Notes under the pieces: model-generated
Seen by the model: the letters and a program-made list of their open reading frames with translations, nothing else
The model's database searches: none
Told to the model about the DNA's origin: nothing
DNA from: Acutalibacter muris
GTDB taxonomy: Bacteria; Bacillota; Clostridia; Oscillospirales; Acutalibacteraceae
DNA: 64,000 bases
Assembly: GCF_002201475.1 (NCBI RefSeq)
Contig: NZ_CP021422.1
Location: forward strand, 62,001-126,000
Reading direction: 5' to 3'
In this document: positions 7,240 through 62,240 of the stretch, piece by piece
Numbering within the stretch: the stretch's first letter is position 1
Layout of the letters: the number at the start of each line of letters is the position of its first letter
Position numbers and translations under genes: made by a program

Positions 7240-10068
7240 TCATATTCCCAAAAGCGGCCTGAGATACTGCCCGGTATAGCTCCCCTCCACCAGGGCTACC
7301 TCTTCGGGAGTGCCCTGGGCCACTATGGTGCCGCCCCGGTTGCCCCCCTCGGGGCCCAGGTCGATGATGTGGTCGGCGGTCTTTATCAGGTCCAGGTTAT
7401 GCTCTATGACCACCACGGAGTTGCCCTTGTCCACCAGCTGCTGCAATACCTCGATGAGCTTGTGCACGTCCGCGATGTGCAGGCCGGTGGTGGGCTCGTC
7501 CAGGATGTAGATGGTCTTGCCCGTGGGCCGGCGGGAGAGCTCCGTGGCCAGCTTCACCCGCTGGGCCTCGCCGCCGGAGAGGGTGGTGGCGGGCTGGCCT
7601 ATCTTCACATAGCCCAGGCCCACGTCGAACAGGGTTTGGAGCTTGCGGTTCAGCTTCGGCAGGTCCCTGAAGAGGTCCAGGCCCTCCTCTACGGTCATCT
7701 CCAGCACGTCGTATATGCTCTTGCCTTTGTACTTCACCTCTAAGGTTTCCCGGTTGTACCTGTGGCCCTTGCACACCTCGCAGGGCACGTACACGTCCGG
7801 CAGAAAGTGCATCTCTATCCTTATGATGCCGTCCCCCTGGCAGGCCTCGCAGCGGCCCCCCTTTACGTTAAAGCTGAAGCGGCCCGGCCCAAAGCCCCGG
7901 AGCTTTGCCTCCTGGGTGCTGGCATAGAGGTCGCGGATGTCGTTAAACAGTCCCGTATAGGTGGCCGGGTTGGACCGAGGGGTGCGGCCGATAGGGGACT
8001 GGTCTATCTGTATCACCTTGTCCAGGTGCTCAAGGCCCCTTATCTCCTTATGGCTCCCCGCGAAGGTGTGGGCGCGGTTCAGCTCGGCCGCCAGCTTCTT
8101 ATAGAGTATCTCGTTTATCAGAGAGGATTTCCCAGAGCCGGACACGCCGGTAATACACACCAACTCACCTAAAGGGAGCTTTACGTCCACGTTCCGGAGA
8201 TTGTTCTGGCTGGCCCCCACTATCTCCAAAAACTTGCCGTTGCCCGAGCGGCGGGTCTCTGGTATCTCCACCTTTTTCTTGCCGCTCAGATACTGGCCTG
8301 TGATGGACTCCTTGCACTTCATGATGCCCTTTACCGGCCCGGAGTATATAACCTTCCCGCCATGCACTCCGGCCCCCGGGCCGATGTCCACGATATAGTC
8401 AGCCTCCCGCATGGTCTCCTCGTCGTGCTCCACCACTATCACCGTGTTGCCCAGGTCCCGAAGGTGCTTTAAGGTGCCCAAAAGCTTGCTGTTGTCCCGC
8501 TGGTGCAGGCCTATGCTGGGCTCGTCCAGAATATACAGTACGCCCATCAGGGACGAGCCTATCTGTGTGGCAAGGCGTATGCGCTGGCTCTCGCCGCCGG
8601 ACAGGGTCCCCGAGGACCGGGACAGGGTCAGGTATTCAAGGCCTACGCTCTGTAGAAAGCCCAGCCGGGACTTTATCTCCTTCACAATGGGCGCGGCGAT
8701 GAGCTTTTCCCGTTCTGTGAGCTCCAGGGCCCCCACAAACTCCAAAGCTTCTGTAACGGACTTGTCGCAGAAGTCCGCGATATTCACCCCGCCCACGGTG
8801 ACAGCCAGGCTCTCCGGGGACAGGCGCTTGCCGTGGCACTCGTCGCAGGGGACGGCGCTCATATAGGTCTCTATCTCGGCCTTTATCCAGTTGGAGGAGG
8901 TCTCCTTATAGCGGCGCTCCAGGTTGTTGATGACCCCCTCGAAGGCCGCCATATAGGAGCTGCCCTTGCCGTACTCGCCCATGCGGGTGAGCTTTATCTT
9001 CTCGCCTTTCGTGCCGTAGAGCAGCACGTCCACTATCTCGCTGGGCAGGTCGCCGATAGGAGTGTCCAGGGAGAACTTATAGTGCTCGGAAAGCCCCTGC
9101 ATATACATGGTGGCGATGGTGCTGCCCTCCATGGCCCAGCCGCTGGCCTTGAGCCCGCCCTTGCGTATGGAAAGCTTCTTGTCCGGGAGGATCAGAGCCG
9201 GGTCTATGCGCATGAACACCCCAAGGCCAGTGCACTTCTTGCAGGCTCCGAAGGGGTTGTTGAAGGAGAACCTCCGGGGGGTAAGCTCGTCCACGCTGAC
9301 CCCATGCTCCGGGCAGGCGTAGTTCTGGGAGAAGGTGATGTCCTCGCCGTCTATGACGTTCACTATCACCATGCCACCGGTGAGCCCCGAGGCCACCTCG
9401 AGGGAGTCCGCGAGGCGGGAGCGTATATCCTCCCGCACCACTAATCGGTCTACCACTATCTCAATGTTGTGCTTTTGGTTCTTGTTGAGCTGTATGGGCT
9501 CGCTAAGGTCGTATAACAGGCCGTCGACCCGGGCACGCACGAAGCCGCCGCGTCTTGCCGCGTCGAACTCCTTCACGTGCTCGCCCTTGCGCCCCCGGAC
9601 CACCGGGGCCAGCACCTGCAATCTGGTCTTCTCCGGCAGGGCCAGCACCTGGTCCACTATCTGGTCTATAGTCTGCTGCTTTATCTCCCGGCCGCAGACG
9701 GGGCAGTGGGGTATGCCTATCCTCGCGTACAAAAGCCGCAGGTAGTCGTATATCTCCGTCACCGTCCCAACGGTGGAGCGTGGGTTTTTGGAGGTGGTCT
9801 TCTGGTCGATGGAAATGGCCGGGGACAGGCCGTCTATCTTGTCCACGTCCGGCTTTTCCATCTGCCCCAAGAACATCCGGGCGTAAGAGGACAGGCTTTC
9901 AACGTACCGCCTCTGGCCCTCGGCATATATGGTGTCGAAGGCCAGTGACGACTTGCCCGAGCCGGAAAGGCCCGTCAGCACCACTAACTTGTCCCGGGGG
10001 ATGGTCACGTCTATGTTTTTAAGGTTGTGCTCCCGGGCCCCGCGGACTTCTATTTTGTCAAGGCTCAT
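7240..10068 (-). CDS. uvrA: Excinuclease ABC subunit A
   Basis: A 942-residue damage-recognition ATPase of nucleotide excision repair. Two ABC modules are visible: Walker [10 protein letters not shown] at residues 33-41 and GVSGSGKSS in the second half, each with its own LSGGE signature. Cys-rich zinc modules include CPVCGRE, CxxC pairs near the [11 protein letters not shown] segment, and CEACQGDGI. Length is normal for UvrA. It lies in the same co-directional run as uvrB, but three unrelated small genes separate them. The upstream NTF2-like gene overlaps its start by 4 bp. Confidence 0.97.
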
Positions 10069-10463
10069 TTTATCTCATCCTTCCCATAAGGAAACTCATG
10101 CTCAGCTTTCGATTGGAACTCTTTTAAGAGGCATATCCTGCCGCTTTCGTCAAAATCAATGAGGGACACGCCGTCAAAGTCCGCCTCCCCGTCATAGTCA
10201 CAGCGGAAATACCACTCCGCCGCCGTCCGGCCCCCCTGGTGCAGGAAGCCCTTTATCCTCCACTCAAGCACCCGGCCCTTTTGGTGCCAGTCCTCAAACC
10301 ACCGTTTTACCTGCCCTATCCCCCGGTACTCCGGGCCGTAGCATTCGCTGTATATTATCCCCGGGGCGAAGATTTCCGGCAGCCTTTTCGGCGTGTTCTC
10401 CACCCAGCACTGGAAGTATTCTCTTATCAGCGCTTCCCTCTGTCCATATTTTTCCTGTTCCAT
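10065..10463 (-). CDS. NTF2-like/SnoaL-like domain protein
   Basis: A 132-residue soluble protein of the nuclear transport factor 2-like fold. The opening helix ([20 protein letters not shown]) followed by [17 protein letters not shown], the WFEDWHQKG segment and the C-terminal [16 protein letters not shown] fit the cone-shaped SnoaL family. Relatives include small-molecule isomerases, hydrolases and scaffold proteins, so the substrate cannot be named. Its 3' end overlaps the uvrA start by 4 bp, and the nitroreductase stop is 3 bp upstream of it, indicating one operon. Confidence 0.7.
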
Positions 10464-10466
10464 TGC

Positions 10467-11000
10467 CTATTCCCCTCCAAACCCGTTGAACCATGCCCGT
10501 TCCTCAAAAGCCTTCTTCTTCGGCCCCGCGCCCGGCTTACCGGCGGCCCTGCCCACCGGCAGGAAGCATACTATACGGTACTCCTCCGGCACGCCCAATA
10601 TTTCCGCCAGCTTCAGGTCTATCCTGTCCTCGTCCGTGATATGCCCCTCATACCAGCAGCTCTCATACCCCAGCGCCTTTATGGCCAGCAGCATATTCTC
10701 TATCGCCGCCGAGTAGTCCTGCACGCTGTAGCACCGGTCCCTATAGGCGATTATGTCCCGGGCAAGCACCAGTATGGCGGCGGGGGCCGTCTCCGCTATG
10801 GGCGGGTCGATAACGCCCTTAAGCCTTGAGAGCAGCTCCGGGTCGTCCACGGCTATAAGGCTGGTCGTCTGCTTATTGCACCCCGAGGGCGCGGCAAGGC
10901 CAGCCGCCATTATCCGGCAGAGGTCCTCCCGTGGGACAGGAGCGTTCTCATAGGGGCCCCGGTAGCTCCTCCTTGAAAGTATCAGTTCAAGTATGTCCAT
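10467..11000 (-). CDS. Nitroreductase family protein
   Basis: A 177-residue FMN-dependent NAD(P)H oxidoreductase of the nitroreductase superfamily. The FMN phosphate-binding segment SRRSYRGPYENAPV is at the N-terminus, SGCNKQTTSLI is typical, and the helix SVQDYSAAIENMLLAIKALGYESCWYEG is the conserved core. The start at 11000 is chosen because ATAAGGAGATAAGC precedes it; a longer frame adds 24 unrelated residues. The physiological electron acceptor is unknown. It lies between a GrpB-fusion gene and an NTF2-like gene in the uvr run. Confidence 0.85.
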   Translation of the reverse strand: MDILELILSRRSYRGPYENAPVPREDLCRIMAAGLAAPSGCNKQTTSLIAVDDPELLSRLKGVIDPPIAETAPAAILVLARDIIAYRDRCYSVQDYSAAIENMLLAIKALGYESCWYEGHITDEDRIDLKLAEILGVPEEYRIVCFLPVGRAAGKPGAGPKKKAFEERAWFNGFGGE

Positions 11001-11010
11001 GCTTATCTCC

Positions 11011-12051
11011 TTATATTTTATTTTGGCCGATATCCGCGAGCCTGAGACCTGCGAGCCTCCCCAGCAGCTCAAGCTCCTGTGGGCCGGGATTTACGAACCG
11101 CAAAGCGGTGCGGCACACGTCCTCAAACTCCCTGCCGCAGATCATTCTATCAGTACCCCCATGACATGACCCACAGCCCTCGCAGATATTCACATGCTCC
11201 CGGCAAAGCTCCTTCTCCCGGTCATCCAGCGGCACGTCCTCAAACCATGGAGAGCCGCTGTCGTCCGTCCAGACCGTCAGCGGGGCGAATCTGGCCTCGG
11301 CCCCTGCACCGTTTATGAGCAGATAGAATACCGGCTCATTGAGGTACGATATCCTCCAGTAGTATTGCCCGGCCCAATAGCCGCCGCACCTCTCAAAGGC
11401 CGTCCCTTCCGCGCGCAGATAAGCCAGGAGCTTCAGCACACTCTCCTGAGTATCAGCCGGAAGTGTCTCGCGGATAAGGGTTTCCGAGGAAATATACCGC
11501 CCGAGAAATTCCTTCTTCGCCCGCGCTGTATGCTCCGCGACAAAATCCCCCTTCTGCCGGGTGTACCCGTCCCGGTCGTGCTCATACTCCCTCCAGAGCC
11601 CCAGCTTTAAATGCTCATACTCCTTCGCTATGTCCGGGTGCGCGTTGAGGTAGTCCCTAAAGTACAGCTCGTCGTGGTCGCCAATAAGCCTGAGGTGCAG
11701 GTGGAACACCCTCTCCGCAAAGCCGTCGGGGGTGTAGCCCTTGTTGAAGTCCGCCCTGTTTTCGCCCCGGGACATGCAGATATATCCCGCCGCTTTCAGC
11801 GCTTCGCCGGCAGTATTCAGCGCCCCCATGTCCGGGGCCTCTATCAAGATATCTACGATGGGCTTGGCCCATATGCCCTTTATGGCCGTACTGCCCACAT
11901 GGTGCAGCTCATGGCCGGGCGGGAGTATTCCGCGAAGTATCCCCGCCTCCTCCTCATACCACTCTGCCCAGCAGTCCTGATGTTCCGTAAGGAATATGGG
12001 GAACAGTTCCCAGAGCTCCTCAATGGTCATTTCACTTAACTTTTTGCCCAT
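11011..12051 (-). CDS. GrpB/UPF0157 nucleotidyltransferase-fold protein with Cys-rich C-terminal domain
   Basis: Residues ~15-180 are a GrpB (UPF0157) domain, a nucleotidyltransferase-like fold, recognised from HHVGSTAIKGIWAKPIVDIL, the FHLHLRL segment and FRDYLNAHPDIAKEYEHLK. Residues ~190-346 form a second domain not part of usual ~175-residue GrpB proteins. It contains CEGCGSCHGGTDRMICGREF, with four cysteines and a histidine that could bind a metal, then a C-terminal helix. I do not recognise that domain. The gene begins behind GGAGAACAG and ends 10 bp before the nitroreductase start. Confidence 0.75.
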   Translation of the reverse strand: MGKKLSEMTIEELWELFPIFLTEHQDCWAEWYEEEAGILRGILPPGHELHHVGSTAIKGIWAKPIVDILIEAPDMGALNTAGEALKAAGYICMSRGENRADFNKGYTPDGFAERVFHLHLRLIGDHDELYFRDYLNAHPDIAKEYEHLKLGLWREYEHDRDGYTRQKGDFVAEHTARAKKEFLGRYISSETLIRETLPADTQESVLKLLAYLRAEGTAFERCGGYWAGQYYWRISYLNEPVFYLLINGAGAEARFAPLTVWTDDSGSPWFEDVPLDDREKELCREHVNICEGCGSCHGGTDRMICGREFEDVCRTALRFVNPGPQELELLGRLAGLRLADIGQNKI

Positions 12052-12069: not shown

Positions 12070-12264
12070 TCAAAGATACTTTCTGCACCGCCATTCCAGC
12101 TCCCCGGTGCGCAGCCACTCTCTCAGAGTTGCAAGCCCCTCCTCATTACGCGGGCAAGGCAGCCACAGGTGCAGATAGGGTGAACCAGCGCTCCAGGCTT
12201 TTGTCCTCCCACAGCCACTGCCCGGATACAGTCTCGTGCTCCACACGGCTTCTCCCTTTGTCAT
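12070..12264 (-). CDS. Small ORF after uvrB, possibly a decayed gene
   Basis: A 64-codon frame opens at an ATG overlapping the uvrB stop (ATGA) with a purine-rich RBS, so translation by coupling is plausible. Its first half looks un-protein-like ([12 protein letters not shown]), whereas another frame over the same bases reads [19 protein letters not shown], and the second half ([20 protein letters not shown]) looks natural. This is what a single-base frameshift in a small real gene would give. I do not recognise either version. Confidence 0.35.
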
Positions 12265-14258
12265 TGTCCCCTTCTCCTTCTGGGCACCGGCGCGTGTCCC
12301 GCGCCCTGTCCTTCAAGCTCCTTTATCTTGTCCCTGAGATACGCCGCGTGCTCGAACTCCAAGAGCTTCGCCGCCGCCTTCATCTCCTTCTTGTACTTCT
12401 CTATGAGCTCCTGGCGCTCGGCGGGAGTGTAGTGCTTCTTTTTCTTCTTGCCGTCCTCCTTATGGGTGGAGATCTCAAGTATCTCCGCCACGTCCTTTGT
12501 AATGGTCTTGGGCACGATGCCGTGGTCCAGGTTATACTTTTCCTGTATGGCCCGCCTACGCTCGGTCTCGGTTATGGCGTATTCCATAGAGGGGGTGACC
12601 TGGTCGGCGTACATTATCACCTGGCCCTCGGCATTCCGGGCGGCGCGGCCGATGGTCTGGATAAGGCTGCGGCCGCTTCTCAGAAAGCCCTCCTTGTCGG
12701 CGTCCAGTATGGCGACAAGGGTGACCTCCGGCAGGTCCAGGCCCTCCCTCAGAAGGTTAATGCCCACCAGCACGTCGAACTCGCCCAGGCGAAGGTCGCG
12801 TATTATCTCCATGCGCTCCACGGTGTCTATATCGTGGTGCATATATCTCACCTTTATGCCGTAATTCTCAAGATAAGTTGTAAGGTCCTCGGCCATCTTC
12901 TTTGTGAGGGTGGTCACAAGCACCCGCTCGTGCTTCTCCACCCGCAGGTTTATCTCCGAGATAAGGTCGTCTATCTGGCCGTCCGTGGGCTTCACCGTCA
13001 CCTTGGGGTCCAGAAGCCCCGTGGGCCTTATGACCTGCTCCACCACCTGGGCGGATTTGTCCAGTTCCAGGTCACCGGGAGTGGCGCTGACGAAGATGGC
13101 CTGGTTTATGTGGGAGTAGAACTCGTCGAAGTTCAGGGGCCTGTTGTCATAGGCCGAGGGCAGCCGGAAACCATAGTCCACCAGCATCTGCTTGCGGGCC
13201 CGGTCCCCGCCGTACATACCCCGCACCTGGGGCAGGGTCACGTGGCTCTCGTCCACAAAGAGCAGGTAGTCCTCGGGGAAGTAGTCCAGAAGGGTGAAGG
13301 GCGCGCTGCCCGGCTCGCGGCCCGAGAGCACCCGGGAGTAGTTCTCTATCCCCTTGCAGAACCCTATCTCAGAGAGCATCTCTATGTCGTGTCTTGTGCG
13401 CTGCTCGATGCGCTGGGCCTCTATCAGCTTGCCCTCGCTCTTGAAGCGGGCCGCCTGTTTCTCCATCTCGTCATAGATATTAGCTATAGCTGTCTCCATC
13501 TTTGTGCCCGGCACGATATAGTGGGAGGCCGGGTATATGCCTATATGCTTCAGTTCCCCGGTGACCTCGCCGGTAAGGGGTATGAACTCCCTTATTCGTT
13601 CTATCTCGTCCCCGAAGAACTCCACCCGCACGGCCTTCTCGCTGGACTCGGCGGGGAAGATCTCCACCACGTCCCCGCGGACCCGGAACTTGTTGCGGAT
13701 AAAGTTCACATCATTGCGCTCATACTGGAGTTCCACAAGCTTTCTTAATAGGTCGTCCCGGTTCTTCTCCATCCCAGGGCGCAGGGATATCACCATGGTC
13801 CTGTAATCTATTGGGTCCCCAAGGCTGTATATGCAGCTGACCGAGGCCACGATTATCACGTCCCGGCGCTCGGAGAGGGCGCAGGTGGCGCTGTGGCGCA
13901 GCTTGTCTATCTCGTCGTTTATGGCGCTGTCCTTCTCTATATAGGTGTCCGTCTGCACGATATACGCCTCGGGCTGGTAGTAGTCATAGTAGGACACAAA
14001 GTATTCCACCGCGTTCTCCGGGAAAAACTCCCGGAACTCCGAGCAGAGCTGGGCGGCCAGGGTCTTGTTATGGGCCAGTATCAAAGTGGGGCGGTTGAGC
14101 CTTGCTATGACGTTTGCCATTGTAAAGGTCTTGCCCGAGCCGGTGACGCCCAAAAGAGTCTGCTCCTTTATTCCTGAGCTTACCCCCTTTACCAGCCGAT
14201 CTATGGCCTCCGGCTGGTCGCCTGTGGGCTGAAATTTTGATGAAAGCTTAAAATCCAT
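12261..14258 (-). CDS. uvrB: Excinuclease ABC subunit B
   Basis: A 665-residue helicase-like subunit that loads onto damaged DNA from UvrA and recruits UvrC. Walker A GVTGSGKT is at residues 37-44, the beta-hairpin [11 protein letters not shown] follows, helicase motifs DESHVTLPQ and QTIGRAARN are present, and a UVR coiled-coil ([18 protein letters not shown]) closes the protein. Length is normal. It lies 15 bp downstream of the RadC-like gene, whose promoter carries a LexA-box-like palindrome, so SOS control of uvrB is likely. Confidence 0.97.
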
Positions 14259-15040: not shown

Positions 15041-15069
15041 ATCATAACAAACATATGTTTCTTTGTCAA
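15041..15069 (-). promoter_or_regulatory. Promoter of radC-like/uvrB run with embedded LexA-box-like palindrome
   Basis: On the minus strand TTGACA (15069-15064) and TATGAT (15046-15041) are 17 bp apart. The perfect palindrome AAACATATGTTT (15049-15060) fills most of the spacer. It differs from the Bacillus-type SOS box GAAC-N4-GTTC only at the two outer bases, and AAACGAATGTTT occurs at the lexA promoter in this window. Confidence 0.7.
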
Positions 15070-15239: not shown

Positions 15240-17063
15240 ATGAAAACCTCTGGCCCTCTCAAGAATATCCGGCGCGCGCTGGCCCTTCTGCTGTGCTGCC
15301 TGCTGATCACCGGCTGCCTTGGCCTGTCCGCTGCCGCCGATGTCGGCGAGGCCCCCGCTGAAACGGCGGAGGAAGGCGGACTGGATAACTTTGCCGAGGA
15401 TACCGGCGCTGTGGATACTGACGGCGCGGCCCTTGACGCCGGTTCCTCCACTGATGATGCTGATGAGCCGCCGGAGTGCGGCAATGTTTCGGTGATCTTT
15501 GACTTCGGCGATTTCGGCACGGTGACCCAAATCGCGGTCCCCGGCATGAAGCCCGAGAGCGTCCCGGATATCCCGGAGGAATATTCCTGGCAGGGCTATG
15601 TTGTCACCGGCTGGCTCAATGAGGCCGGAGAATTTGTTGACCCGATGGAGACAGACATTAACGGCGACACCGTGTATAAGGCCCAGCTCCAGCGCAGCGT
15701 CAGCGCCCTGATGAACACCGACGAGCATAAGGCGTATATCCACGGTATCACCGACGAGATATTCAACATACAAGGAAACCTGACCAGGGCCGAGGCCGCC
15801 ACCCTGTTCAGCAACCTGCTGCGCCAAAAGGATTTCGACTATTCGGCGGACTTTACGGACGTTAAACCCACCGAATGGTTTGCGGAGTCCGTGGGGAGGG
15901 TGAACGCGTTAGGAATTGCCAGCGGCCGGGAGGACGGCAAATTCTCCCCCAGGGAGAATATTACCAGGGCCGAGTTTGTGAAAATGGCTGCCGCCTGTGA
16001 CAGCCTTGTGGAGGCCGAATGTCCCTTTGCCGACGTGTCGGAAACCCACTGGGCCAGAGCGTATATTGCCTCTGCCTATGCCAAGGGTTGGATCAAGGGC
16101 GACGCTGGCGGCAAGTTCCGCCCATACGATAAGATTTCCCGGGCAGAGGCCGTTATTATCCTAAATAATATGCTGGGCCGCCAGCCTGACGGGGACATAG
16201 AGAACAAGCCCGGGACCCGGAGCTTCTGCGACGTGTTCCCGGAGCACTGGGCCTATGGAAATATCATAGAAGCGGCCACCGACCATGAATTTACCGCCAC
16301 CGAGGAGGGCGGCGAGCAGTGGACGGACTATACCCGATATGAGGCCACGAAGAAGCGCGGCTGGATAAGCGGCGGCGGCAAGCGCTACTATATCGGCTCC
16401 AACGGCATGGCACTGCGTGGCGCACAGACCATCGGCGGTGTGAAGTATTGGTTTGACAGGACCGGGGCCGGGGCCACGGGCTTCTTCACCGAGGGGAAAT
16501 GGAAGCGATACTATAAAAACGGCGAGCTGGTGGAGGATATATCGAATCTGGGCGTGGTAAAGGGTCCGTACTATATAAAGGTATATAAGCCCGCCAACTA
16601 TCTGATAATATTCGCAAAGGAGGACTCCGGGAAATATAACATCCCCGTGCGCTCCATGCTGGTTTCCTGCGGAAACCCCACACCCACCGGCGACTACTAT
16701 ACCCCCGCCCGCTACCGCTGGCTGGAAATGGTGGGCGGCAGCTGGGCCCAGTGGTGCACACAGATATACGACAGCTATCTGTTCCACTCGGTGCCAAACG
16801 ATCTGAGGAACAACTATACCATGTGGTCCGGCGAGTACAATAACCTGGGAACTACCCGGTCGCTGGGGTGCATACGCTTGAACTGTGAGGACGCAAAGTG
16901 GATATACGATAACTGCGCCCTGGGCACCCATGTGTTTATCTCTGCCACAGAGACCTCCGGGCCCCTGAAGAAGCCCGCCGGGCTGAAGATACCCTCCTGG
17001 CATACCTGGGATCCCACGGACCCCACGGCTAAGTATATGTGCGAGCGGCGCGGCTGCCACTGA
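15240..17063 (+). CDS. Secreted S-layer-homology protein with L,D-transpeptidase (YkuD) domain
   Basis: A 607-residue exported cell-wall enzyme. A basic N-terminus and hydrophobic stretch (RRALALLLCCLLITGCLG, residues 11-28) form a signal peptide, possibly a lipoprotein type with TGC. An acidic linker and a small beta domain follow, then three SLH-type repeats over roughly residues 160-350 for wall anchoring. Next come short glycan-binding-like repeats (KRYYIGSNGMALRG, VKYWFDRTGAGATG). The C-terminal YkuD domain has H516 and the catalytic motif SLGCIRL with C544. It probably makes 3-3 peptidoglycan cross-links or attaches proteins to the wall. It is monocistronic, ending at a 13-bp-stem terminator. 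Confidence 0.88.
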   Translation: MKTSGPLKNIRRALALLLCCLLITGCLGLSAAADVGEAPAETAEEGGLDNFAEDTGAVDTDGAALDAGSSTDDADEPPECGNVSVIFDFGDFGTVTQIAVPGMKPESVPDIPEEYSWQGYVVTGWLNEAGEFVDPMETDINGDTVYKAQLQRSVSALMNTDEHKAYIHGITDEIFNIQGNLTRAEAATLFSNLLRQKDFDYSADFTDVKPTEWFAESVGRVNALGIASGREDGKFSPRENITRAEFVKMAAACDSLVEAECPFADVSETHWARAYIASAYAKGWIKGDAGGKFRPYDKISRAEAVIILNNMLGRQPDGDIENKPGTRSFCDVFPEHWAYGNIIEAATDHEFTATEEGGEQWTDYTRYEATKKRGWISGGGKRYYIGSNGMALRGAQTIGGVKYWFDRTGAGATGFFTEGKWKRYYKNGELVEDISNLGVVKGPYYIKVYKPANYLIIFAKEDSGKYNIPVRSMLVSCGNPTPTGDYYTPARYRWLEMVGGSWAQWCTQIYDSYLFHSVPNDLRNNYTMWSGEYNNLGTTRSLGCIRLNCEDAKWIYDNCALGTHVFISATETSGPLKKPAGLKIPSWHTWDPTDPTAKYMCERRGCH

Positions 17064-59167: not shown

Positions 59168-59749
59168 TTAATAGTACCGCAGCACCGCTATGACCCTGCC
59201 CAAAAGGGACACATGGTCGGAGTAGATGGGCTCAAAGTCCGGGTTCTCGGGCTGCAGGCGCACACCGCCCGGCTCCCGGTACAGGCGCTTTACAGTGGCC
59301 TCGTCGTCTATCATGGCCACAACTATCTCCCCGTCATCTGCCGTGGGGGTGCGCTCCACTATGACGTAATCGCCGTCAAGGATCCCCGCGTCCCGCATAC
59401 TGAGCCCCACCACGTGCAGGGCGAACAGTTCCTTACCGCTCTTCTGGGGGAAGGGCACATAGCCCTCTATGTCCTCTATAGCCAGTATGGGCATACCCGC
59501 CGTGACCCGGCCCAGGATGGGCACCTGGGCGGCAGGCTCCGCCCCCTCGATACGAATGGAGCGGTTGAGCCCGGCGTCCCGGGTGATATAGCCCAGGCGC
59601 TCCAGGGTCTTTAGGTGGGCGTGCACCGTGGAGGTGGAGCGAAGGCCCGTGGCGTTGCATATCTCCCGGACCGTGGGCGGGACCCCGCCGGGCATGGTTT
59701 TAACGAGATAGTCGTACACCTTTTGCTGGCTTTTCGTTAAGCCGTCCAT
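59168..59749 (-). CDS. lexA: LexA repressor
   Basis: A 193-residue SOS repressor with an N-terminal winged HTH (TKSQQKVYDYLVKTMPGGVP, then REICNATGLRSTSTVHAHLK) and a C-terminal autoprotease. The self-cleavage bond is A84-G85 in RVTAGMPI; the catalytic dyad is S117 (GLSMRDAG) and K154 (ATVKRLY). ATG 59749 follows AAAGGAGG and gives the normal length. Its promoter carries the palindrome AAACGAATGTTT, consistent with autoregulation. Confidence 0.95.
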   Translation of the reverse strand: MDGLTKSQQKVYDYLVKTMPGGVPPTVREICNATGLRSTSTVHAHLKTLERLGYITRDAGLNRSIRIEGAEPAAQVPILGRVTAGMPILAIEDIEGYVPFPQKSGKELFALHVVGLSMRDAGILDGDYVIVERTPTADDGEIVVAMIDDEATVKRLYREPGGVRLQPENPDFEPIYSDHVSLLGRVIAVLRYY

Positions 59750-59873: not shown

Positions 59874-59902
59874 ATTATAACATGGTTTATCTGAAAATGC
59901 AA
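59874..59902 (-). promoter_or_regulatory. lexA promoter
   Basis: On the minus strand TTGCAT (59902-59897) and TATAAT (59879-59874) are 17 bp apart. The leader of ~115 nt contains GGAGAA/TTCTCC and GCGAAG-type inverted repeats. Confidence 0.7.
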
Positions 59903-59913
59903 AACGAATGTTT
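59902..59913. promoter_or_regulatory. Candidate LexA box at lexA
   Basis: AAACGAATGTTT has the same AAAC-N4-GTTT frame as the palindrome in the radC-like/uvrB promoter. It abuts the upstream edge of the lexA -35 element. Confidence 0.55.
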
Positions 59914-61060: not shown

Positions 61061-61249
61061 GAGGGCTAAAAGTGAGTGAGGTATATTGCGCGCGGCTTGG
61101 CAGTGTCATTAATGGATGCCAAATATAACATAGGCACCGGAAAATTATTCGGAGAAATGTTGGACAATCCTGGCTTTGCCGCGTATACTGGTATAGGGAG
61201 CCGGATTGCGAAACCAGTGCGGAACAAGTCCGAAACATTGGTTTCCTTC
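61061..61249. other. Unassigned intergenic DNA before the GGDEF gene
   Basis: Part of a 312-bp gap. I see no convincing ORF, RNA motif or repeat. A c-di-GMP riboswitch was looked for because a diguanylate cyclase follows, but its conserved core is absent. Confidence 0.4.
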
Positions 61250-61325: not shown

Positions 61326-62240
61326 TTGGAAAAGATAATGATAATCGATGACAGCCCGGTGCAGGCCGCGCATCTGAAGAACATACTGGAGAGCGACTAT
61401 CAGATCACCACAGTACAGGAACCACAGATGGGGCTTAGCTACGCCAGGGAGCAGGACTTTTCGCTCATACTGCTGGATGTGGTCATGCCCGGCATGGACG
61501 GCTTCGTGCTGCTGAAAAAGCTCCAGGAGGAGGTTGCCACCAGGCATATCCCGGTAATACTCATAACCGCGCTCTCAGATATCGAGAACGAGCAGCGGGG
61601 CCTGACCCTGGGGGCAGTGGACTATATATATAAGCCTTTCCACCCGATGATAGTTAAGGCCAGGGTAAACACCCACATAAAGCTCTATCAGTACCGCAAG
61701 CAGGTGGAGTACCAGTCCATGACCGACCAGCTCACGGGCATAGCCAATAGGCGGCGGTATGAGCGCGTCAGCGAACAGAAATGGCAGGAGGCCATCAGGC
61801 TCCGGGTGCCCTTTTCCATCTGCATGATGGATATAGACCACTTTAAAAAGTACAACGATACCTTTGGCCATCCGGCCGGCGATACGGTGATCACCGCCGT
61901 GTCCGCCACGGCGGGCAGGTATCTCCGCAGGAACACGGACTTCCTTGCCAGGTATGGCGGTGAGGAGTTTGTGGTGTTTATGATGGGGGACAGCTCCAGA
62001 CAAGCTTTCGAGCAGATGTGCCGCGTGCGTCGGGCTGTGGAGGAGCTGCATATACCCCACTCAGGTTCGGTTTCAGAGTGGGTTACCATCAGTGCGGGCG
62101 GGACAACCGTACTGCCGAAACGGGGAGATTCCTTTGACACCTTTTTAAAGATAGCGGACACCATGCTGTATGACGCCAAGCGGTTCGGACGCAACCGGGT
62201 GGTTTGGAATGACGAGAATATGCGGCAATTTTCCGAATGA
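61326..62240 (+). CDS. Response regulator-diguanylate cyclase
   Basis: A 304-residue protein, TTG start. Residues 1-120 are a receiver domain with phospho-acceptor D51 (LILLDVVMPGMDG) and the conserved lysine in YIYKPF. Residues ~130-300 are a GGDEF domain with the active-site GGEEF at 211-215 and an inhibitory I-site RNTD at 202-205, so it should make c-di-GMP under phosphorylation and product-feedback control (a PleD/WspR-like design with one receiver). No partner kinase is adjacent. Confidence 0.93.
   Translation: MEKIMIIDDSPVQAAHLKNILESDYQITTVQEPQMGLSYAREQDFSLILLDVVMPGMDGFVLLKKLQEEVATRHIPVILITALSDIENEQRGLTLGAVDYIYKPFHPMIVKARVNTHIKLYQYRKQVEYQSMTDQLTGIANRRRYERVSEQKWQEAIRLRVPFSICMMDIDHFKKYNDTFGHPAGDTVITAVSATAGRYLRRNTDFLARYGGEEFVVFMMGDSSRQAFEQMCRVRRAVEELHIPHSGSVSEWVTISAGGTTVLPKRGDSFDTFLKIADTMLYDAKRFGRNRVVWNDENMRQFSE

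Follow-up and report, generated by a model that had tools for sequence, protein, structure and literature searches.

The question raised by this locus of Acutalibacter muris is whether a palindrome lying inside the promoter of a radC-like gene, immediately ahead of uvrB, is a binding site for LexA, and which genes it would then place under SOS control. The window (the whole stretch of DNA analysed, 64,000 nucleotides, from a single contig of 3,802,813 bp) also contains lexA. The earlier note on this DNA had located the palindrome, AAACATATGTTT, in the 17-bp spacer of a minus-strand TTGACA/TATGAT promoter, and both coordinates and promoter were confirmed (Table 1). The promoter, read from 15069 to 15041, matches 11 of the 12 consensus bases with a TG before the -10, and the palindrome is 37 bp upstream of the ATG of the radC-like gene. 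Only two copies of this 12-mer were found in the genome, against 0.06 expected, one here and the other at recA. We consider AAACATATGTTT very probably a LexA docking site, that is, a promoter-level SOS switch fairly ordinary in kind. The composite proposal, to which we give a probability of about 0.88, is that it acts as the LexA operator of a radC–uvrB(–cargo–uvrA) transcription unit, repressed by LexA and induced by damage; LexA binding, repression and co-transcription are what we infer from sequence, position, conservation, geometry and exclusive placement. A gene for an L,D-transpeptidase with an SLH domain (15240-17063, plus strand) runs divergently from radC and lies 180 bp beyond the box.

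Table 1 Features of the radC–uvrA region and of the lexA locus (positions in the window)
Feature	Position	Strand	Remarks
LexA operator (candidate) AAACATATGTTT, perfect palindrome	15049-15060	n/a	radC–uvrB unit; basis: sequence and conservation
Promoter TTGACA-N3-[operator]-N2-TATGAT	15041-15069	minus	operator within 17-bp spacer
radC-like gene, RadC/JAB family, 245 aa	14274-15011	minus	
uvrB, 665 aa	12261-14258	minus	NF003673; starts 15 bp after radC stop
64-codon ORF	12070-12264	minus	4-bp overlap (ATGA) with uvrB stop; possible coupled small gene; translation read by eye
GrpB-domain protein gene, cargo between uvrB and uvrA	11011-12051	minus	PF04229
Nitroreductase-family gene, cargo	10467-11072	minus	PF00881
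SnoaL-like gene, cargo	10065-10463	minus	PF12680; overlaps uvrA start by 4 bp
uvrA, 942 aa	7240-10068	minus	end of same-strand run from radC; profile searches
LexA operator (predicted) of lexA, AAACGAATGTTT (AAACATTCGTTT on minus strand)	59902-59913		last base(s) are the first of the -35
lexA promoter TTGCAT-17-TATAAT	59874-59902	minus	
lexA, 193 aa from its ATG	59168-59749	minus	TIGR00498

The lexA product matched TIGR00498 with 204.7 bits and, in profile searches, contains both the PF01726 DNA-binding domain and the PF00717 S24 peptidase. Residues A84-G85, S117 and K154 were invariant in an alignment of eight sequences (A1), as expected for a member of the LexA family; by comparison with E. 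coli LexA we take them to be the Ala-Gly cleavage site and the Ser/Lys dyad. The box at lexA had been said to abut the -35, which is correct, the overlap being of one base if the promoter is read as TTGCAT-17-TATAAT or of two if read as TTTGCA-18. Absence of the motif from recA and other SOS genes had been named as the result that would speak against LexA, and this attempt at refutation failed. Upstream of recA (G000:C1:3607576-3607587) there is a box identical letter for letter to that of radC–uvrB, and the spacer of the dinB promoter carries GAACATGTGTTC, the textbook GAAC-N4-GTTC. An exact RAAC-N4-GTTY box precedes every one of the four core SOS units tested (lexA, recA, radC–uvrB and dinB). 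With 110 such sites in 3.80 Mb, or 0.0087 per 300 bp, the chance of finding boxes in all four 300-bp stretches is ~6e-9 if the sites are assumed to be evenly spread. The placement at lexA, recA and excision-repair promoters is that of a Firmicutes-type LexA box, and the AAC-N4-GTT core is present at the radC and lexA sites with A/T, not G/C, as outer bases, the G/C form being found at dinB.

Motif density was considered as a further line of evidence and dropped. The window has four AAAC-N4-GTTT sites where 0.44 were expected from shuffles, of which those at 10296 (inside the SnoaL coding ORF) and 61233 are apparent background. Genome-wide this form is not rare (43 sites against ~26 expected under a first-order model of the window), and GAAC-N4-GTTC has 21 sites against ~35 expected. 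The support for a LexA box is its position and conservation, not the rarity of the motif.

We have compared the upstream regions in 27 genomes of the same genus besides our own and in 17 from other families of the order. The genus counts include our own genome and refer to exact boxes in the 300 bp before the gene (250 bp for dinB). A box was found in 22 of 27 lexA loci, 20 of 27 recA loci and 21 of 22 dinB loci, and elsewhere in the loci the background ranged from 0.005 to 0.048 exact boxes per 300 bp (30 loci per gene, other families included), the highest value, that of the uvrB loci, counting the radC boxes themselves. The genus loci are related and the counts are not independent. Among the five lexA loci devoid of an exact box, L094, L095 and L112 have one-mismatch sites at -63, -63 and -79, L098 has one at -187 and L096 has no site even when one mismatch is allowed. 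For recA the seven exceptions include three with a one-mismatch site in the usual place (L160, L161 and L163), three with such sites elsewhere (L154, L155 and L157) and one with none (L159). In 19 of the 20 exact-box genus loci (L150-L176) about 20 bp separate the recA box from the apparent -35 downstream of it (30-32 bp from start to start), an unusual position for plain occlusion. Seven dinB promoters (L188, L190-L193, L196 and L201) have two exact boxes each, the second starting 23-33 bp downstream of the first.

In the other families of the order, ten lexA loci (one of them a doubtful match at 29% identity, and five further weak-match genomes left out) gave AAAC-N4-GTTT in five, GAAC forms in two and no exact box in three, and an exact box was found in 3 of 16 recA promoters. 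A wider survey of GTDB genomes, restricted to the best 80 of 589 confirmed lexA loci, a few of them with less than 300 bp upstream, gave AAAC-N4-GTTT in 43, GAAC-N4-GTTT without the AAAC form in 15, GAAC-N4-GTTC only in 1 and no exact box in 21. The closest named LexA records among the matches listed included 'Bacterium D16-76', 'uncultured Neglecta' and Ruminococcaceae MAGs.

The outer bases of the box deserve separate consideration, as the lineage had been proposed to use an outer-base-shifted version. Part of this stood: AAAC…GTTT is the form at lexA and at the radC and recA of this genome. A shift across the lineage did not, and was rejected, since dinB keeps GAAC-N4-GTTC here; besides, recA of most relatives has AAAC-N4-GTTC, radC of seven relatives has GAAC-N4-GTTT, and the AAAC-N4-GTTT form at lexA extends beyond the genus (43 of the best 80 named loci of 589). 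Gene by gene, the 22 exact lexA boxes of the genus are AAAC…GTTT in 21 cases and GAAC…GTTT in one, with the last T or Ts opening the apparent -35 in nearly all. The 20 exact recA boxes are AAAC…GTTC (16) or AAAC…GTTT (4). The dinB promoters contain 28 sites in 21 loci, GAAC…GTTC in 15, GAAC…GTTT in 9 and AAAC…GTTC in 4, one box being located directly before the -10 in all 21 exact-box loci. The stretch of LexA corresponding to the recognition helix is nearly invariant across the genus. The box of this genome is best described as RAAC-N4-GTTY, presumably read by one and the same LexA with the outer base set by the promoter, and the outer base seems to vary by gene more than by lineage. At lexA the right-hand T is accounted for because it doubles as part of the -35; the remaining variation may be a tuning of LexA affinity. 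In E. coli the weaker LexA operators fire earlier. By this rule lexA would be induced early and dinB late. The order described in a C. difficile study contrasts with it, the slowest release of LexA being from recA, lexA and uvrB (PMC4234289). The strings AAACNNNNGTTT and RAACNNNNGTTY, in those spellings only, were not found in one open-licence collection of papers; the variant may well be published elsewhere or in another spelling.

Fourteen genomes of the genus, own included, have the box in an identical place of the radC promoter, overlapping the promoter of the first gene as would be expected of an SOS unit. The geometry is the same in all 14, with the box 9 bp after the start of TTGACA (TTGACG in one) and a 17-bp spacer; the inner four bases vary, and the forms are AAAC…GTTT in seven and GAAC…GTTT in seven. 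When the 25 uvrB loci available from the genus were compared, an either/or pattern was found. In these 14 the radC promoter has the exact box and none is found within 300 bp of uvrB. In ten others a box with one mismatch (GAATATATGTTC, GAACATTTGTGC and similar) precedes uvrB by 51-70 bp, an exact one being absent from radC, and in the last one the contig ends 132 bp upstream. Six of the ten have radC upstream but no exact box at its start; the comparison at radC is confined to these six, since the other four either lack a radC match within 1.5 kb (three) or are cut short by the contig (one). The uvrB sites of the ten also keep to fixed positions, counted from the start of the -35: 35 bp in the six radC-upstream genomes and 11 bp in three others, G126 standing apart. 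The separation has some blurring: one-mismatch sites are also found 97-208 bp before uvrB in three of the 14 genomes with the radC box, G100 (a uvrB-box genome) has in addition an exact GAACTTTTGTTC at -101, and G112 has an exact site at -296, inside radC. The uvrB-proximal boxes weigh less in the argument, having one mismatch each and being recognised after the fact, and one-mismatch matches are common by chance.

This alternation favours the view of radC–uvrB as a single unit under LexA, and such a pattern would be expected from selection that retains LexA control of uvrB but is indifferent to which of the two promoters provides it. On a tree of 23 genomes built with LexA, RecA and UvrB, the radC label needs three changes (none of 500 shuffles was as low), two of them forced by well-supported branches, indicating repeated moves of the operator, or its gain and loss. 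In other genera, uvrB follows radC on the same strand, within the fetched 1.5 kb, in 10 of the best 29 RadC loci; two of these ten (L061 and L071) have an exact GAAC-N4-GTTC before uvrB, and an exact box at radC is absent from all 29. This suggests that radC and uvrB were adjacent before radC acquired its operator.

The run from radC to uvrA in the window is on one strand with small gaps or overlaps, and no convincing terminator was found in the window between its genes; the terminator-like minus-strand sites at 14043, 14724 and 12011 are inside uvrB, radC and the GrpB gene, respectively. In this genome the 15-bp gap between the co-directional radC and uvrB contains no promoter-like site of 9 or more matches out of 12. 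The equivalent gap measures 64-371 bp in 7 of the 14 radC-box genomes, and the genes overlap in 2; no site at that threshold was found in 11 of the 12 gaps, that of G107 having one (9/12). In all 20 genus stretches read (of the 27 other genus genomes) uvrA is downstream of uvrB on the same strand, with variable cargo in between. A conserved LexA box before uvrA was not found, exact sites within 400 bp being present in 4 of the 20 relatives, at -250 to -288. A separate conserved uvrA box was rejected on this scatter and on the location of our own 10296 site inside the SnoaL ORF. The suggestion that the radC-like gene, uvrB and perhaps uvrA are one SOS unit comes out well for the first two, which look like a single unit by the either/or placement and the short gap. 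For uvrA it is likely, given the constant position downstream of uvrB with no conserved box of its own, and we place uvrA probably in the radC–uvrB unit.

A narrower reading would have LexA control radC, with uvrB and uvrA expressed mainly from constitutive promoters of their own, so that the SOS unit would be radC alone. The wide gaps in half of the radC-box genomes, one of them with its 9/12 promoter-like site, and the cargo genes between uvrB and uvrA that differ from genome to genome are in its favour. We consider it rather unlikely in view of the 15-bp gap here, the 11 of 12 gaps with no promoter-like site and the ten genus genomes in which no box was found at radC and uvrB has a box-like site of its own. 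A different objection, that LexA of this lineage has truly shifted to AAAC and no longer reads GAAC, can appeal to the 21 of 22 exact genus lexA boxes with AAAC-N4-GTTT; it is made very improbable by the 15 GAAC…GTTC and 9 GAAC…GTTT among the 28 dinB sites, by GAAC…GTTT at radC of seven relatives and by the nearly invariant recognition-helix stretch.

Another possibility is that a different dimeric repressor, for example one of TetR type, binds the palindrome, which would then resemble the lexA box by coincidence. The composite pattern TTGAC-N4-RAAC-N4-GTTT-N2-TATNAT occurs once in our own genome and at 21 sites in 20 of 398 genomes of the family (one site with the reversed control). The genus provides six genomes of this set; the four with a site have it at radC–uvrB, and the two others, G100 and G119, are uvrB-box genomes. 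Of the 17 sites in other genera, two are at dinB-like genes and two beside LexA/S24-like genes; the remaining 13 include sites at tetR-like, greA, rpsF and sigma-like genes, and for the first three of these an SOS link is not obvious. The pattern alone is therefore no proof of LexA. Three tetR-like genes (L431, identified by Pfam, and L435 and L444, by eye) share the promoter frame of the radC box, with AAAC-N4-GTTT in it; their palindromes are perhaps TetR operators and a trap for motif-only LexA searches. For radC–uvrB we regard another repressor as very unlikely, with the identical 12-mer at recA, the GAAC-N4-GTTT at radC of seven relatives, which is the form bound by C. difficile LexA (PMC4234289), and no regulator among the radC neighbours, which are uvrB and the SLH/YkuD gene. 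Least probable of all is a chance palindrome in an AT-rich promoter. It draws on the genome-wide frequency of AAAC-N4-GTTT and on the two apparent background sites among the four of the window. One of these served as a matched negative control: AAACATTGGTTT (61233-61244) resembles a LexA box and immediately precedes the -35 of a gene for a GGDEF response regulator (61326-62240), and at that gene an exact box was found in none of nine relatives. A chance origin of the radC box was rejected on this control and on the promoter geometry, which is constant across all 14 genomes while the inner bases change. LexA binding at the radC–uvrB promoter is the reading that we retain.

Other possible targets were sought around 44 of the 110 exact sites, those outside ORFs, with a promoter match of at least 9/12 within ~40 bp, or in DNA below 42% GC. 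A match of 10/12 or better was found at only 8 of the 110, including radC, lexA, dinB and 61233; the recA site is not among them because its promoter lies further off. The 24 ORFs near selected sites were run against Pfam, 13 of them giving no family, and as candidate SOS genes, besides dinB, a GNAT-DUF3795 fusion gene alone was taken further. This gene (292 aa, G000:C1:2948549-2949427, minus strand; L046:550-1428) has GAACGTGTGTTC 25 bp upstream, and in the best nine orthologous loci (own included; relatives L382-L390) an exact box was found in seven, a one-mismatch box in one and none in one, making it a candidate new SOS gene. Two observations concern mobile DNA. At L379 (G000:C1:3701785), GAACTTGCGTTT is located 203 bp upstream of a Tn916-type integrase gene, possibly an SOS-linked mobile element. 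At L442 and L443, from another genus, the composite pattern faces away from the S24/LexA-like gene and toward a gene for a sigma-region-4 protein, and the locus is perhaps a mobile element with LexA-type control.

The RadC-like protein is the sole RadC match in the genome at E 0.001. It belongs to the RadC/JAB family by PF04002 (93.5 bits) and is below the NCBIfam cut-offs, with 105.8 against 180 bits for the equivalog and 89.6 against 133.85 bits for the subfamily, which indicates a divergent RadC and makes 'RadC-like' the safe name. The HxH-x7-SxxD JAB motif is present in all 20 genus RadCs read, own included. A repair role for RadC is disputed: PMC5512222 sets E. coli radC work against the reference 'RadC, a misleading name?' and proposes a role in nucleic-acid processing. 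In the pneumococcus radC is a late competence gene (PMC6560143), and in Bacteroidetes RadC (COG2003) was reported in the predicted SOS network of several species (PMC8565304). The Bacteroidetes case differs in having a non-canonical LexA and a different motif, and 'uvrB' is absent from the main text of that paper. RadC under SOS control is not new in itself; of most value here are its connection with the SOS response, the alternation of the operator between radC and uvrB and the outer bases specific to each gene. A radC–uvrB SOS unit in Clostridia was not found in titles or opening abstract lines among the matches listed.

LexA dimers sitting on the box between the -35 and -10 would block the use of the promoter by RNA polymerase. 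Upon DNA damage, RecA filaments trigger the self-cleavage of LexA, as established for the LexA family. RadC, UvrB and probably UvrA would then be made together, and the box at lexA would provide autoregulation. A broader scenario, possible if doubtful, is that several branches of the genus recruited RadC to the SOS regulon by moves of the operator from the uvrB to the radC promoter and that RadC works with nucleotide-excision repair, the outer base being a conserved, gene-specific setting of LexA affinity that orders induction, with lexA first and dinB last.

The nearest known systems are those of Bacillus and Clostridium. The sites described for C. difficile in PMC4234289 are GAAC....GTTT at lexA and recA and GAAC....GTTC at uvrB, the promoters being bound in SPR. 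The Bacillus/Clostridium box (GAAC-N4-GTTC, or GAAC-N4-GTTT in C. difficile) is like the one predicted here in its 4-4-4 palindrome, its AAC...GTT core and its location at lexA, recA and uvrB(A). It differs in that the sites predicted here have an outer A/T on both half-sites at lexA and at our own radC and recA, and that the outer base changes with the gene and is largely conserved within the genus. The SOS operons of Clostridium have uvrB with uvrA downstream in common with this locus, either as uvrB-uvrA...uvrC with further genes and a predicted LexA site in C. acetobutylicum (PMC3828012) or as uvrBA in C. difficile (PMC4234289). Here, by contrast, radC is the first gene and bears the operator, and GrpB-like, nitroreductase and SnoaL cargo is found between uvrB and uvrA. 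The SOS meta-regulon of gut Firmicutes comprises lexA, recA, uvrB, uvrA, uvrD, dinB and others (PMC3998124); radC is not named among the matches listed from that paper.

In kind, the radC–uvrB site would be an ordinary member of the Firmicutes SOS regulon, with the added interest that RadC appears tied to damage repair in part of the genus. With RAAC-N4-GTTY as the stated box, the reach of the SOS regulon now includes a lineage of gut Clostridia; lexA, recA and radC–uvrB of this genome would escape a search restricted to GAAC. The gene-specific outer bases lead to a simple and testable model of the order of induction. Furthermore, genomes with the operator at radC can be paired within the genus with others that have it at uvrB, and such natural pairs make it testable whether RadC takes part in damage repair and how an operator can relocate while uvrB keeps its place in the regulon.
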